In this document: piece after piece, positions 3,385 through 22,956 of the stretch
Layout of the letters: the number at the start of each line of letters is the position of its first letter
Numbering within the stretch: position 1 is the stretch's first letter
Assembly (NCBI RefSeq): GCF_022808695.1
Contig: NZ_JAKZKW010000028.1
Coordinates: 1 to 42,814 of the forward strand
Length of the DNA stretch: 42,814 nt
Direction of reading: 5' to 3'
Source of the DNA: Fundidesulfovibrio soli
Lineage (GTDB): Bacteria; Desulfobacterota; Desulfovibrionia; Desulfovibrionales; Desulfovibrionaceae
The notes under the pieces: model-generated
Seen by the model: the letters and a program-made list of their open reading frames with translations, nothing else
What the model was told of the DNA's origin: nothing
Database searches by the model: none
Program-made: the position numbers and the translations under genes

Positions 3385-5619
3385 CTAGCCGCACTTGGTG
3401 AAGCCGCAGGCCTTGCACACGTAGCAGCCTTCCTCGAAGGTCAGCTCGTGGTCGCAGTCAGGGCAGGTGGGCGTGGTCAGGGACTTCACGCCGTCGCCCA
3501 TGGTGCGGCCCTGCATGTAGCGGCGCTCAAGCACCCAGGCCACGGAGTCCGGCAGGGAGAGCAGCAGCCCCTTCTTCTGGAACACCGGGTTCTCGCCGCC
3601 GATGCCCTTGAGCTGGCCCACCACGTCGGCCACGTCCACGCCTGAGCGCAGAGCCAGGGAGACGAGCCTGCCGATGGCCTCGGCCTTGGCCGTGATGGAG
3701 CGGCCGGACTTGCCGATGGTGGCGAACACCTCGAAGGGTTTGCCGTCCACCTCGTTCACGGTGAGGTAGAGGTCGCCGTAGCCGGTCTTGACCTTCTGGG
3801 TGAAGCCGTAGACCACGTCCGGCCGGTTGCGCACCTTGGACTCCTGGCGGTCGTCGGCCTTCTCCTTCTTGGAGCCGTCGCCGGTGCAGAGCACCTGGGC
3901 GGACTTGCAGCCGTCGCGATACACGGTGACGCCCTTGCAGCCCAGTTCGTAGGCCAGCCAGTAGATGCGCCAGATGTCGTCCTGCACGGCGGAGTTGGGC
4001 AGGTTCACGGTCTTGGAGACGGCGTTGTCAGTGTACTTCTGGAAGGCGGCCTGCATCTTCAGGTGCCACACGGGCTCGATGTCCATGGCCGTGACGAAGG
4101 TGCGGCGCAGCTCTTCGGGGATGTAGTCGATGTGCTTGATGGAGCCCTTGGCGGCCACCTCCTCCATGAGCTTGGGGGAGTGGCACTGGGCGGCCTTCAC
4201 CGCGGCCTCGAAGTAGGGGTTGGACTCCACCAGCTTCTCGCCGTCCATCACGTGGCGCGCGAAGGAGAGCGCGAACAGCGGCTCGATGCCCGAGGAGCAG
4301 CCCGCCAGGATGGAGAGCGTGCCCGTGGGCGCGATGGTGGTGGTGGTGGCGTTGCGGAAGGGGCCCTGCTTGTGCTGGGCGTAGACCGAGCCCTCGAAGT
4401 TGGGGAAGGCGCCGCGCTCCTCGGCCAGGACCTTGGACGCGGCCTTGGACTCGTCCTGCATGAAGTCCATGATCTTCTCGGCCAGGCGCAGGGCCTCCTG
4501 GGAGTCGTAGGGGATCTCCAGCTGATAGAGCAGGTCCGCGAAGCCCATGACGCCCAGGCCGATCTTGCGGTTGGCGCGCACCATGTCGCTGATGCGCTCC
4601 AGCGGGTAGACCGAGGCCTCGATCACGTTGTCCAGGAAGCGCACGGCCAGGTGGATGACGCGCTTGAGCTCGTCCCAGTCCACGCCGTCGCGGGTGTCGG
4701 CCTTCATCAGGGCCAGGTTCACCGAGCCCAGGTTGCATGCCTCGTAGGGCAGCAGGGGCTGCTCGCCGCAGGGGTTGGTGGACTCGATCTCGCCCAGGGC
4801 CGGGGTGGGGTTGTCGCGGTTGATGCGGTCCAGGAAGATGATGCCCGGATCGCCCGACTCCCACGCCTTCTGCACCAGCAGGGAGAACACCTCCCGGGCC
4901 TTGAGCCTGGTGATGACCTCCTTGGAGTGCGGGGCCACCAGGTCGTACTCCTCGTCGGCCTCCACGGCCTGCATGAAGGCCTCGGTGAGTGCCACGGAAA
5001 TATTGAAGTTGTTGAGGTCTCCCTCGCGCTCCTTGCAGCGGATGAACTCGAGGATGTCCGGGTGGTCCACGCGCAGGATGCCCATGTTGGCGCCACGGCG
5101 CGTGCCGCCCTGCTTCACCTGCTCGGTGGCGGTGTTGAAGATGCGCATGAAGGACACCGGGCCGGAGGCCACGCCGCCCGTGGAGCCCACCCGGGAGTTC
5201 ACCGGGCGCAGCCGCGAGAAGGAGAAGCCCGTGCCGCCGCCGGACTTGTGGATCAGGGCCGCGTGCTTCACCGCGTCGAAGATCTCGTCCATGGAGTCGC
5301 CCACGGGGATCACGAAGCAGGCCGCCAGCTGGCCCAGGTCCGTGCCCGCGTTCATCAGAGTGGGCGAGTTGGGCAGGAACTTGAAGGAGGTCATCAGGTC
5401 GTAGAAGGCCCGGGCGAGCGCGTCCGGCTTCCAGGAGGACGTGGCGAACAGCGTCTCCTGGCCCGCAATGGCATCGGCCACGCGCCAGAAGAGCTCCTGC
5501 TCGGTTTCTATGGCTTCGCCCTGGGGGCCTTTGCGCAGGTAGCGCTTGGCGAGGACGACCTTGGCGTTCTGGTTCAAACCGGGCTCGGGCAGGTCCGCCG
5601 GGATGCTGGAGACGGGCAT
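3385..5619 (-). CDS. nrdJ: Vitamin B12-dependent (class II) ribonucleoside-diphosphate reductase
   Basis: A 744-residue enzyme that makes deoxyribonucleotides using an adenosylcobalamin-generated thiyl radical, needing no oxygen. The active-site block NPCGEQPLLPYEACNLGS (about 286-303) carries the Asn, thiyl Cys and Glu of the catalytic centre; APTGTLSILAGCSSGIEP (about 430-447) is the other family signature. A zinc-ribbon tail with CPDC and CKAC pairs sits at about 719-744, typical of NrdJ. ATG 5619 follows AAGGAG. Neighbouring genes are unrelated, so it is probably monocistronic. The leader was searched by eye for a cobalamin riboswitch (B12-box) and for NrdR boxes; neither was seen. Confidence 0.95.
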   Translation of the reverse strand: MPVSSIPADLPEPGLNQNAKVVLAKRYLRKGPQGEAIETEQELFWRVADAIAGQETLFATSSWKPDALARAFYDLMTSFKFLPNSPTLMNAGTDLGQLAACFVIPVGDSMDEIFDAVKHAALIHKSGGGTGFSFSRLRPVNSRVGSTGGVASGPVSFMRIFNTATEQVKQGGTRRGANMGILRVDHPDILEFIRCKEREGDLNNFNISVALTEAFMQAVEADEEYDLVAPHSKEVITRLKAREVFSLLVQKAWESGDPGIIFLDRINRDNPTPALGEIESTNPCGEQPLLPYEACNLGSVNLALMKADTRDGVDWDELKRVIHLAVRFLDNVIEASVYPLERISDMVRANRKIGLGVMGFADLLYQLEIPYDSQEALRLAEKIMDFMQDESKAASKVLAEERGAFPNFEGSVYAQHKQGPFRNATTTTIAPTGTLSILAGCSSGIEPLFALSFARHVMDGEKLVESNPYFEAAVKAAQCHSPKLMEEVAAKGSIKHIDYIPEELRRTFVTAMDIEPVWHLKMQAAFQKYTDNAVSKTVNLPNSAVQDDIWRIYWLAYELGCKGVTVYRDGCKSAQVLCTGDGSKKEKADDRQESKVRNRPDVVYGFTQKVKTGYGDLYLTVNEVDGKPFEVFATIGKSGRSITAKAEAIGRLVSLALRSGVDVADVVGQLKGIGGENPVFQKKGLLLSLPDSVAWVLERRYMQGRTMGDGVKSLTTPTCPDCDHELTFEEGCYVCKACGFTKCG

Positions 5620-19507: not shown

Positions 19508-19536
19508 TTGACAGCGGGGCGGAGGGTCCGTATCGT
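19508..19536 (+). promoter_or_regulatory. Sigma-70-type promoter of the leuA leader
   Basis: A perfect -35 TTGACA (19508-19513) is followed after exactly 17 bases by TATCGT (19531-19536, 4 of 6 matches to TATAAT). The predicted start of transcription falls at or within a base or two of ATG 19543, which opens a Leu-rich short reading frame. Placed about 260 bases upstream of leuA and just after the chemoreceptor stop. Prediction only, no mapped start. Confidence 0.55.
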
Positions 19537-19572
19537 GAGTCCATGTTCACGACGCTGACCCTCCGCCCCCGC
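19514..19572. repeat. Long inverted repeat overlapping the leuA promoter
   Basis: GCGGGGCGGAGGGTC (19514-19528) pairs with GACCCTCCGCCCCCGC (19557-19572), one base bulged. Inside it TCGTGA (19533-19538) pairs with TCACGA (19547-19552). The promoter spacer and -10 lie in the left arm, and the start of the leader peptide frame lies in the right arm. It may be the factor-independent end of the chemoreceptor transcript, although no T-tract follows, or an operator or cruciform-type control element for leuA. Confidence 0.5.
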
Positions 19573-19620
19573 TTCCTCGCGGCTCCCGCCGCCCTCTCGC
19601 TACCGCCCCTGGCGGTCTGA
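19543..19620 (+). CDS. Candidate Leu-rich leader peptide of leuA
   Basis: A 25-codon frame (ATG 19543, TGA 19618-19620) with six Leu codons, at positions 5, 7, 12, 18, 20 and 23, one of them the rare CTA, and a final Val. It begins at the predicted transcription start, so the transcript would be leaderless; there is no ribosome-binding site. A small hairpin (ACCGCC-CCT-GGCGGT, 19602-19616) and a T7 run (19627-19633) follow, but ten bases separate them, so a standard attenuator-terminator is not clear. The stretch after it (19621-19662) is pyrimidine-rich and poor in G, as Rho loading sites are. Leu enrichment could partly be chance in GC-rich DNA. Confidence 0.45.
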   Translation: MFTTLTLRPRFLAAPAALSLPPLAV

Positions 19621-19712
19621 TAATCGTTTTTTTCTTCTCTTTATTCCGTTTTCGTCCCGCTCCAGCCGCCAAGCGGCATTGTCCATATGATCGACCATGC
19701 AGGAGGTCCGCC

Positions 19713-21929: not shown

Positions 21930-22727
21930 CTATTCCCCCAGCCCGGCCAGGGCGTCCTCAACGTCGCCGCCGTCGTGCACGATCTTGCCCAGGGCCTGCA
22001 GCAGGCGGGTGGGGTCCTTGTGCTGGAAGATGTTGCGGCCAACCGACAGGCCGGAACCGCCCGCCTGGATGGAATCCGCCACCATGCGCAGGAAGTCCCT
22101 GGTGGTGGGCGTCTTGGGCCCGCCCGCGATGAGCACGGGCACGCGCGCACCGGCCACCACGCGGGCGAAGCTCTCGGGGTCGCCGGTGTAGGGCACCTTG
22201 ACCATGTCCGCGCCCAGCTCCATGCCCACGCGGGCGCAGTGAGCCACTACCTCGGGGTCGAACTCGTTCTTGATCTTGGGGCCGCGCCCGTAGACCATGG
22301 CCAGCACCGGAATGCCCCAGCGCGCGGCCTCGCGGCTGATGCGCCCCATGTCCGCCAGCATGTCCCTCTCGGACTCGTCGCCCAGGTTCAGATGCACGCT
22401 CACGGCGTCAGCGCCCAGTTGGATGGCCTCCTCCACTTCGCAGACCAGGGTCTTGGCCCCGGGGAAGGGCGAGAGCGAGGTGGAGGCCGAGAGGTGGACG
22501 ATCAGCCCGATGTCGCGCCCGCGCGCCCTGTGGCCGCAGGGCACCACGCCCTTGTGCATGAGCACGGCGTTGGCCCCGCCCTCAACGATCTTGGTCACGG
22601 TGTCGCGCATGTCGATGATGCCGTCGATGGGGCCGACCGTGACGCCGTGGTCCAGGGGCACGATGATGGCCCTGCCGGTGTCGCGGTTGATGATGCGTTC
22701 GAGACGGATGGTTTTGCCGATGTGCAT
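21930..22727 (-). CDS. Archaeal-type aldolase, 2-amino-3,7-dideoxy-D-threo-hept-6-ulosonate (ADTH) synthase
   Basis: A 265-residue class I (Schiff-base) aldolase of the DeoC/LacD-like group. The type found in methanogens and Desulfovibrio makes ADTH, the first step of a shikimate-type route to aromatic amino acids that avoids DAHP. Visible: [17 protein letters not shown] (about 21-37), [33 protein letters not shown] (about 115-131), the Lys region [14 protein letters not shown] (about 177-190) and the phosphate-binding [16 protein letters not shown], ending [15 protein letters not shown] fructose-bisphosphate aldolase label would also fit the fold; the leader with aromatic codons favours the aromatic role. 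ATG 22727 follows AGGAG. Confidence 0.85.
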
Positions 22728-22772
22728 GGTGGTTGCTCCTGGCCTTTCCCGGCCCATGACGCCCGCGCCACG

Positions 22773-22805
22773 AAAAAGGGCCGCGAACGTCTTGTTCGCG
22801 GCCCT
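22773..22805 (-). terminator. Intrinsic terminator (attenuator) in the ADTH synthase leader
   Basis: On the minus strand AGGGCCGCGAAC (22805-22794) and GTTCGCGGCCCT (22788-22777) form a perfect 12-bp stem with a five-base loop, followed directly by TTTTT (22777-22773). It lies 46 bases before the start of the ADTH synthase gene, and no other minus-strand gene lies upstream, so it must act in that gene's own leader. The 5' arm contains CCGCGAA, complementary to TTCGCGG in the leader peptide frame, giving a ready antiterminator. Confidence 0.85.
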
Positions 22806-22832
22806 GTGGAAAGAGCGCTGCTTGGGTTGATC

Positions 22833-22919
22833 CTACTGGAGTTCGCTCCGCCACGCCCCGCGAAAGCGGACACCGTAGGAATAATAATACTGGCTGCAGT
22901 GGGCGTGGGTATTGCGCAT
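22833..22919 (-). CDS. Aromatic leader peptide of the ADTH synthase attenuator
   Basis: A 28-codon frame, ATG 22919 to TAG 22833, 27 bases before the terminator stem. It encodes Tyr at 11, 12, 13 and 15 (YYYSY, with TAT TAT TAT TCC TAC), Phe at 19 and Trp at 23. The Phe-Arg-Gly codons (TTT CGC GGG, near 22865-22858) contain TTCGCGG, which can pair with CCGCGAA in the 5' arm of the terminator. A ribosome stalled on the Tyr run would leave that stretch free to form the antiterminator; a ribosome that moves on would cover it. The start has no ribosome-binding site and lies at about the predicted transcription start, so the message may be leaderless. Confidence 0.8.
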   Translation of the reverse strand: MRNTHAHCSQYYYSYGVRFRGAWRSELQ

Positions 22920-22920
22920 G

Positions 22921-22956
22921 GACTAGGGTTTAGTCATGGTGGGGGTGAACTGTCAA
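22921..22956 (-). promoter_or_regulatory. Promoter and operator-like repeat of the ADTH synthase leader
   Basis: On the minus strand a perfect TTGACA (22956-22951) stands 16-18 bases before the weak -10 region ACTAAAC (about 22934-22928). GACTA-AACCC-TAGTC (22935-22921), an inverted repeat, extends outward to CATG on both sides and covers the -10 region and the expected start. Its ACTA...TAGT layout recalls tryptophan repressor operators but spacing differs, so that link is only a guess. It also overlaps the ribosome-binding region of the divergent lipoprotein gene. Confidence 0.55.

Follow-up and report, generated by a model that had tools for sequence, protein, structure and literature searches.

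A predicted tyrosine attenuator before a stand-alone ADTH synthase gene of Fundidesulfovibrio soli and its counterparts with other sensor codons in Desulfovibrionales

Introduction

Could the archaeal-type entry enzyme of aromatic synthesis be controlled by tyrosine through a translated leader? The question is raised by a locus within the window, that is, the whole 42,814-nucleotide (nt) stretch of F. soli DNA that was analyzed, in which a sequence-only reading had proposed a transcription attenuator with a Tyr-rich leader peptide upstream of a gene for ADTH synthase (ADTHS). In the enterobacterial trpL, pheL, and pheST leaders, the position of the ribosome on the regulatory codons determines which of two mutually exclusive structures, the terminator or the antiterminator, is formed; the trpL and pheL leaders have a Shine-Dalgarno (SD) site, and the aromatic isozymes of Escherichia coli are distinguished by repressors and feedback inhibition. 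The available excerpts of one source describe leader attenuators at trpL, pheL (pheA), and pheST in enterobacteria, and TyrR/TrpR repression of the E. coli entry-enzyme isozyme genes aroF and aroH (PMC11802643). Attenuation of an entry enzyme has been described in Corynebacterium glutamicum, where the aroR leader with Phe-Tyr-Phe codons precedes the DAHP synthase gene aroF and reportedly responds to Phe, not Tyr (Neshat et al. 2014, as excerpted in PMC11802643 and PMC4046766). According to the excerpted part of another report, the uORFC-13-1 motif, with 24 representatives from Acholeplasma and environmental sequences, lies before aroF and contains at least one Phe codon and a ribosome binding site (PMC8632094). 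The accessible text of a 2005 survey assigns tyrosine to T-box regulation, with attenuators listed for histidine, threonine, and phenylalanine (PMC1262725).

Results

All of the elements named in the sequence-only reading (TTGACA, the 28-codon frame, the 12-bp terminator, the gene start, and the TTCGCGG/CCGCGAA complementarity) were found on the minus strand where it had placed them. The locus comprises the following parts:

22951 to 22956, minus strand: −35 element TTGACA, read from the sequence and matching the order-wide TTGAC
22927 to 22932, minus strand: predicted −10-like element TAAACC, from the sequence and leader column counts
22833 to 22919, minus strand: leader open reading frame (ORF) MRNTHAHCSQYYYSYGVRFRGAWRSELQ, 28 codons from the ATG at 22919 to the TAG at 22835-22833, supported by genus and order conservation
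22875 to 22889, minus strand: sensor codons Tyr-Tyr-Tyr-Ser-Tyr, from the genus leaders and the Tyr class among stand-alone ADTHS rows
22866 to 22869, minus strand: segment 1, CCGC, which can pair with GCGG of segment 2 in a 4-bp hairpin with a UUUC loop; putative competitor
22858 to 22864, minus strand: segment 2, TTCGCGG, predicted 5′ strand of the antiterminator, within the Phe-Arg-Gly codons; order-wide covariation
22794 to 22805, minus strand: segment 3, terminator 5′ arm AGGGCCGCGAAC, whose CCGCGAA (22801-22795) is complementary to segment 2
22773 to 22805, minus strand: intrinsic terminator with a perfect 12-bp stem, a 5-nt loop, and a U run; covariation in 70 aligned leaders
22736 to 22740, minus strand: AGGAG, the likely ADTHS ribosome binding site, from the sequence
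21930 to 22727, minus strand: ADTHS gene, stand-alone copy, 265 amino acids, ATG at 22727 (TIGR01949; MJ0400)

The leader peptide carries Tyr at positions 11 to 13 and 15, Phe at 19, and Trp at 23. Four Tyr codons within five were obtained in 0 of 2,000 dinucleotide shuffles of the 260 nt upstream, in any of the three sense frames. The terminator hairpin spans 22805-22777 and is followed by T residues to 22773, and the antiterminator would be a 7-bp duplex of TTCGCGG (22864-22858) with CCGCGAA (22801-22795). A generic promoter scan around the leader returned no passing promoter; the TA of TAAACC is the TA that column counts over the leaders of the order show to be conserved 13/12 nt 5′ of the leader ATG. 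The neighbors of the gene are a converging leuA-type gene downstream and a small, lipoprotein-like plus-strand ORF diverging upstream. Upstream of the convergent leuA, at 19508-19640 on the plus strand, a TTGACA is followed 35 nt on by a 25-codon ORF, MFTTLTLRPRFLAAPAALSLPPLAV, with six Leu codons, and then by a small hairpin and a T run with noncanonical hairpin-to-T spacing; this region is possibly a leaderless Leu leader.

The ADTHS protein scored 381.3 bits against NCBIfam TIGR01949, above the equivalog cutoff of 299.45, and its nearest solved structure in the PDB is MJ0400 (E value of 1.2e-95). The genome (4.0 Mb) is close to Fundidesulfovibrio agrisoli, and the window ADTHS is 99% identical to that of locus L007. 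A second ADTHS, 67% identical to the window copy, is the first gene of an aro-trp operon on contig 20, in which DHQ synthase II, prephenate dehydratase, EPSP synthase, and TrpD matched NCBIfam models above the curated cutoffs, and prephenate dehydrogenase, TrpE, TrpG, TrpC, and TrpF were best matches below them. This operon copy has its own terminator and its own leader, MQTPNFAAGFFNWFYFWFSRASGSGRGAR, with mixed Phe/Trp/Tyr codons (FFNWFYFWF). The proposal that the entry enzyme is under Tyr attenuation applies to one of the two isozymes, the leader of the other being mixed. A third, more distant homologue (42%) elsewhere in the genome is preceded by an ORF with scattered aromatics only, and a terminator looked for upstream of it was not found.

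Within the genus Fundidesulfovibrio, the stand-alone copy occurs in six of seven genomes, the one without it being 66% complete. A Tyr run or terminator missing from close relatives had been named as grounds against the attenuator; both are kept in all six copies, the Tyr cluster as YYYSY in five and as YYCY in L034, and the terminator as CCGCGAAC...GTTCGCGG. The segment 2 motif UUCGCGG is unchanged in five of the six leaders and reads AUCGCGG in L035.

The survey was then extended to the order. The ADTHS protein was searched in 348 genomes and matched in 329, and the upstream regions of 167 distinct ADTHS loci were taken as a sample, not a census, consisting of the closest sequences, 70 genus-spread genomes, and a few loci from other phyla. 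A leader was defined as an ORF ending 85 to 180 nt 5′ of the gene with at least four aromatics in eight codons. Such an ORF lies within the 450 nt upstream of 134 of 153 ADTHS genes of the order, compared with 5.0% of 1,530 dinucleotide shuffles, a count from which L012-L023 were all left out. L034 was added to the leader list by hand because its YYCY missed the cut of four aromatics in eight codons; L017, L012, L015, L020, and L082 were kept out by hand. A terminator follows 133 of the 135 leaders taken on, mostly 20 to 33 nt past the leader stop, the exceptions being L138 and the archaeal L016, which passed the leader cut by accident and is counted both among the 135 and in the 134-leader promoter set described below. 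In a Spirochaetota metagenome-assembled genome (L017, positions 4700-4930), a Tyr/Phe/Trp-rich leader with a hairpin and T run, recognized by eye, lies 5′ of an ADTHS-DHQ synthase II pair.

The RNA pairing was examined by covariation. The leader tail often encodes GCC-yGC-GG (Ala-Arg/Cys/Ser-Gly), the complement of CCGCxGGC in the terminator 5′ arm. A column test covered 124 of the 135 leaders, the other 11 lacking one motif or the terminator. The y-x combinations in these rows were T-A in 49, C-G in 43, A-T in 8, and T-G in 14, so that the variable position is paired in 114 of 124 (100 Watson-Crick and 14 G-U pairs), and some of the ten nonpairing rows reflect the regular expression picking another GCGG. 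Permuting x gave a mean of 52 Watson-Crick pairs (maximum, 75) and of 81 with G-U included. The main alignment counts come from alignment A3, which held all 70 leaders of a random draw from 106/112 nonredundant leaders of suitable length. Here, 88.8% of the antiterminator cells were paired, with 41 double changes compared with 11.9 in shuffled and 5 to 32 in slid controls, and 92.5% of the terminator cells, with 57 double changes compared with 14.9 in shuffled controls. Pairing at the variable column is seen in 64 of the 70 leaders for the antiterminator but in 24 for the terminator (46 unpaired); since the terminator is mostly mismatched there, selection at this column acts on the antiterminator. 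Alignment A2, the basis of the covariance model, held 55 leaders, 15 of the 70 being omitted because their tails looked divergent, and gave 91.4% paired cells and 34 double changes compared with 6.1 shuffled; alignment A1 included 19 of 23 Tyr-type leaders. In a tree-aware test of 108 rows, on average 5.7 of 8 independent pairs changed the same way and 0.0 the opposite way (median P of 0.031; range, 0.016 to 0.219). With 20 shuffles made for each leader, the best leader-to-arm duplex exceeded every one of them in 95 of 133 leaders; it exceeded the swapped-arm mean in 121 of 133. The order-wide alignment of leaders that had been suggested as a check returned what it was meant to look for, aromatic-rich frames with covarying antiterminator and terminator stems, and Tyr attenuation of the archaeal-type entry enzyme is supported at the sequence level by the six genus copies and by a chassis present across the order.

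In 98 of 134 leaders, TTGAC lies 35 to 38 nt 5′ of the leader start codon, a figure to be read with the rule that the in-frame start nearest 36.5 nt from TTGAC was chosen, so that a leaderless reading was favored by the method. An SD-like motif is missing in 95 of these 98; the base preceding the ATG is C in 87% of the 36-nt set and 96% of the 37-nt set, and a TA lies 12 to 13 nt upstream. The remaining 36 leaders include 17 with a spacing of 52 to 65 nt, 6 with no TTGAC in range, and 11 with an SD-like motif. The spacing suggests a leaderless leader mRNA whose predicted first base is the A of the ATG or its neighbor, and the leader ORF of the window is probably translated from such an mRNA. 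Collectively, comparison of the leaders established the frame, the Tyr run, the terminator, the predicted antiterminator pairing, and the promoter-to-ATG spacing.

In 108 of 133 leaders, the distance from the last core aromatic codon to the start of segment 2 is 5 to 10 nt. For folding, the modeled ribosome masked a stretch from 18 nt upstream to 12 nt downstream of the first base of the A-site codon, and the RNA was cut before segment 4; segment 2 is masked by construction, and the model is informative only on the place of the switch. An unspecific measure, which counted any upstream pairing of segment 3, gave no distinction between ribosome positions in the 133 leaders and showed no switch; the measure used in its place was pairing within the specific segment 2:segment 3 duplex. 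With this measure, the mean antiterminator probability over the 133 leaders was 0.81 to 0.90 with the A site 2 to 12 codons 5′ of the last core aromatic, 0.72 one codon before it, 0.41 on it, 0.12 one codon past it, 0.04 at two, and about 0 beyond. With the ribosome at the stop codon, it rose again to a mean of 0.36 (median, 0.11), and release timing would therefore matter. For the window leader, the values were 0.94, 0.66, and 0.80 on Tyr codons 11 to 13, 0.11 on Ser14, and no higher than 0.01 from there on. When no ribosome was placed on the RNA, the mean over the set was 0.73, so that termination in most relatives seems to need a ribosome over segment 2; the window gave 0.00, a modeled value consistent with competition from the CCGC-GCGG hairpin, which resembles the classical three-hairpin scheme. 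Modeled antitermination on the Tyr codons was weak in three of the six genus leaders (L032, at most 0.08; L033, 0.07 to 0.41; L035, at most 0.03, the script having picked a different 7-bp duplex in L035), which is ascribed to the short duplex of the genus (7 to 9 bp).

The sensor codons were classified along a protein tree of 155 rows, from which the non-order loci L012-L023 were left out except L017, an operon row scored as "none." The 99 operon rows consist of 79 with mixed Trp/Tyr/Phe codons, 6 Phe, 3 Tyr, 2 Phe/Tyr, and 9 "none," the last being five tandem second genes, L011 at a contig edge, L017, and L083 and L128, whose leaders lie further upstream. Among the 56 stand-alone rows, 23 are Tyr, 1 more has a Tyr run with Trp in the scored stretch, 15 are Phe, 4 are mixed, and 13 are "none" by the cutoff; these 13 include L034 with its YYCY, L169 with FFF and a terminator, and L076 with a terminator. 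Tandem ADTHS pairs occur in five genomes (L139, L140, L155, L158, and L167), with a leader 5′ of the first gene only and the second gene close behind. In a stand-alone clade (L068, L079, L145, L151, L157, and L163), no leader was found; the same genomes have leader-bearing copies. On the tree, which was made by a quick method with SH-aLRT support only and has many weak forks, 4 changes accounted for the stand-alone Tyr rows, compared with a mean of 22.6 after shuffling, and 7 for the stand-alone Phe rows, compared with 14.5; the pairings of gene context and sensor have therefore been gained or lost several times. Two or more copies were examined in each of 41 genomes; a mixed operon leader is accompanied by a Tyr leader in 12 of these and by a Phe leader in 14. 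The leaders of the order use TAT 253 times and TAC 143 times, and TTT 409 and TTC 156 times; in five coding sequences of the window, the counts are 7 and 28, and 1 and 67, respectively. This excess of TAT and TTT in leaders may prevent structure from forming in the stall region.

Other genes that carry the element were sought with its covariance model. In the window's genome, among the best 150 of 3,485 first-look candidates that were scored, only the leaders of the stand-alone and the operon ADTHS reached an E value below 1e-3. Other genomes of the genus gave a few weaker extra matches, of which the fetched L205, L206, and L209 show no leader, and 35 of 36 further genomes had a match, G332 being the exception. 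Twenty further matches were fetched, of which 10 lie before SSF symporter genes and 2 before trpE-like genes. None of the other eight (L194, L202, and L204-L209) is convincing as a leader, and they look like unrelated terminators. The symporter genes (L190-L193 and L196-L201; 10 loci in nine genomes) are preceded by Phe-rich leaders such as MNSHQNRFGFFFFFGFRFFRSACGLGVCE and encode proteins of 532 to 557 amino acids, all 10 of which reach Pfam SSF. A clear Trp leader, SWRGLWWRD, precedes the trpE gene at L203 (G226), and L195 (G189) is a weaker case; the best NCBIfam match of both genes is trpE_most, below its curated cutoff. The leaderless spacing recurs in 9 of the 10 symporter leaders and in the G226 trpE leader. 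Judged from the leaders, the choice of sensor codons follows the gene behind them: runs of Tyr or Phe before stand-alone ADTHS, a mixture of Phe, Trp, and Tyr before the aro-trp operon, Phe before the SSF symporter, and Trp before trpE.

Discussion

We read the window element as a ribosome-mediated transcription attenuator that would sense charged tRNA-Tyr, with a probability of roughly 0.87. For the start site, stalling, termination, and tyrosine response of this leader, we infer the following course. Transcription would begin at the leader ATG or immediately beside it, and the leaderless 5′ end would be loaded with a ribosome. Under a shortage of Tyr-tRNA, the ribosome would stall on Tyr codons 11 to 13, covering segment 1 but not segment 2, whose UUCGCGG could then pair with CCGCGAA in the 5′ arm of the terminator; no terminator would form, and ADTHS would be transcribed. 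When Tyr-tRNA is plentiful, the ribosome would pass over segment 2, the terminator would form, and transcription would end near 22773.

The signal might be broader than Tyr, if Phe19 and Trp23 count as well or if any slow translation near the 5′ end relieves termination. The frame does contain the Phe and Trp codons, the tail Trp is kept in five of the six genus leaders, and the Phe-Tyr-Phe leader of C. glutamicum aroR is described, in the excerpt available, as responding to Phe, not Tyr (PMC11802643). Nevertheless, position 19 reads F/V/I/F/V/N across the genus, and among the other genera with Tyr-type leaders the largest lacks the tail Trp, its tails reading RARGLAGG, which leaves Tyr as the only supported sensor and counts against the cosensing of Phe and Trp that had been considered for the window. 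Moreover, the modeled antiterminator is already lost by Ser14/Tyr15, so that a stall at Phe19 or Trp23 would not help. We regard the broader signal as unlikely.

The leader peptide or the small terminated RNA might additionally act in trans, as the leaderless trpL of Sinorhizobium meliloti gives a trans-acting peptide, peTrpL (PMC7298713, in part). Outside the codon run and the segment 2 stretch, however, the peptides are poorly conserved by eye, which is the expectation if only codons and RNA matter, and such an extra role appears improbable.

Tyrosine genes are under T-box control in other bacteria, according to the accessible part of PMC1262725, and the leader might be a T-box or riboswitch that binds tRNA or a ligand, with an accidental ORF. 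Yet a search of the window and six related loci at the Rfam gathering threshold gave no match, and at E values up to 5 nothing relevant appeared, the subthreshold matches being unrelated or weak. The T-box model did not match, and Leu_leader reached 13.4 bits against a gathering threshold of 50. The conserved RNA that we see consists of segments 2, 3, and 4, and the run of codons for a particular amino acid precedes segment 2 within a narrow range of spacings; we consider a T-box or riboswitch very improbable. A subthreshold match of SdsR_RyeB to the terminator region (26.3 bits; gathering threshold, 38) was taken as a coincidence of GC hairpins. Hardly credible, finally, is an ordinary terminator of a neighboring gene beside a chance ORF: intrinsic terminators are common, and a 3-kb scan found five terminator-like sites where 1.6 were expected, but the window's stem is the longest by far, no gene is seen to end at it since the upstream neighbor diverges, and across the order the element keeps its position and has an antiterminator that covaries.

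The tyrosine attenuator proposed here would share with enterobacterial trpL, pheL, and pheST the mutually exclusive terminator and antiterminator; those leaders do not sense tyrosine, whereas the window leader has Tyr codons, and it is probably leaderless, unlike trpL and pheL with their SD site. Leaderlessness as such is not new, since the leader mRNA of S. meliloti trpL begins at its AUG; that leader differs in being a Trp attenuator on trpLE(G), as described in the accessible part of the source (PMC7298713). Like aroR of C. glutamicum, as far as the excerpts describe it, the window leader would be a leader-peptide attenuator with aromatic codons on an aromatic entry enzyme; unlike it, aroR has Phe-Tyr-Phe codons, controls DAHP synthase rather than ADTHS, and belongs to another phylum. 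The uORFC-13-1 motif is likewise, in its excerpted description, a candidate upstream-ORF attenuator before an entry-enzyme gene, there for DAHP synthase of another enzyme family. The open PMC literature, as far as its accessible text goes, with subscription papers outside its scope and with the best 15 to 20 of many papers considered for several queries, yielded no Tyr-responsive ribosome attenuator and no attenuator on ADTHS or elsewhere in Desulfovibrionales. DVU0460-0462, which we take to be the locus tags of the ADTHS region, were not named in the open PMC literature searched. The apparent novelty is the isozyme-wise swapping of sensor codons, attenuation of the entry enzyme being already known from C. 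glutamicum.

The relatives appear to use the same chassis with other sensor codons and thus different amino-acid signals for each ADTHS isozyme. It is rather probable that Desulfovibrionales govern their aromatic amino acid supply with a single attenuator chassis, mostly leaderless and interchangeable, which stands before ADTHS isozymes, before trpE, and before an aromatic amino acid symporter gene, with sensor codons swapped among Tyr, Phe, Trp, or all three. If so, the window leader would be the first Tyr-sensing ribosome attenuator, and the system would be an RNA-based counterpart of the Tyr-, Phe-, and Trp-specific DAHP synthase isozymes of E. coli; here, unlike in E. coli, the isozymes appear to be distinguished by codons in a small leader. 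The Phe leaders also give a functional prediction for the uncharacterized SSF symporter, whose substrate would be phenylalanine or a similar aromatic compound taken up by the cell. Within one bacterial order, this RNA has apparently been rekeyed several times, and it may serve as a natural codon-swap experiment on attenuator evolution.
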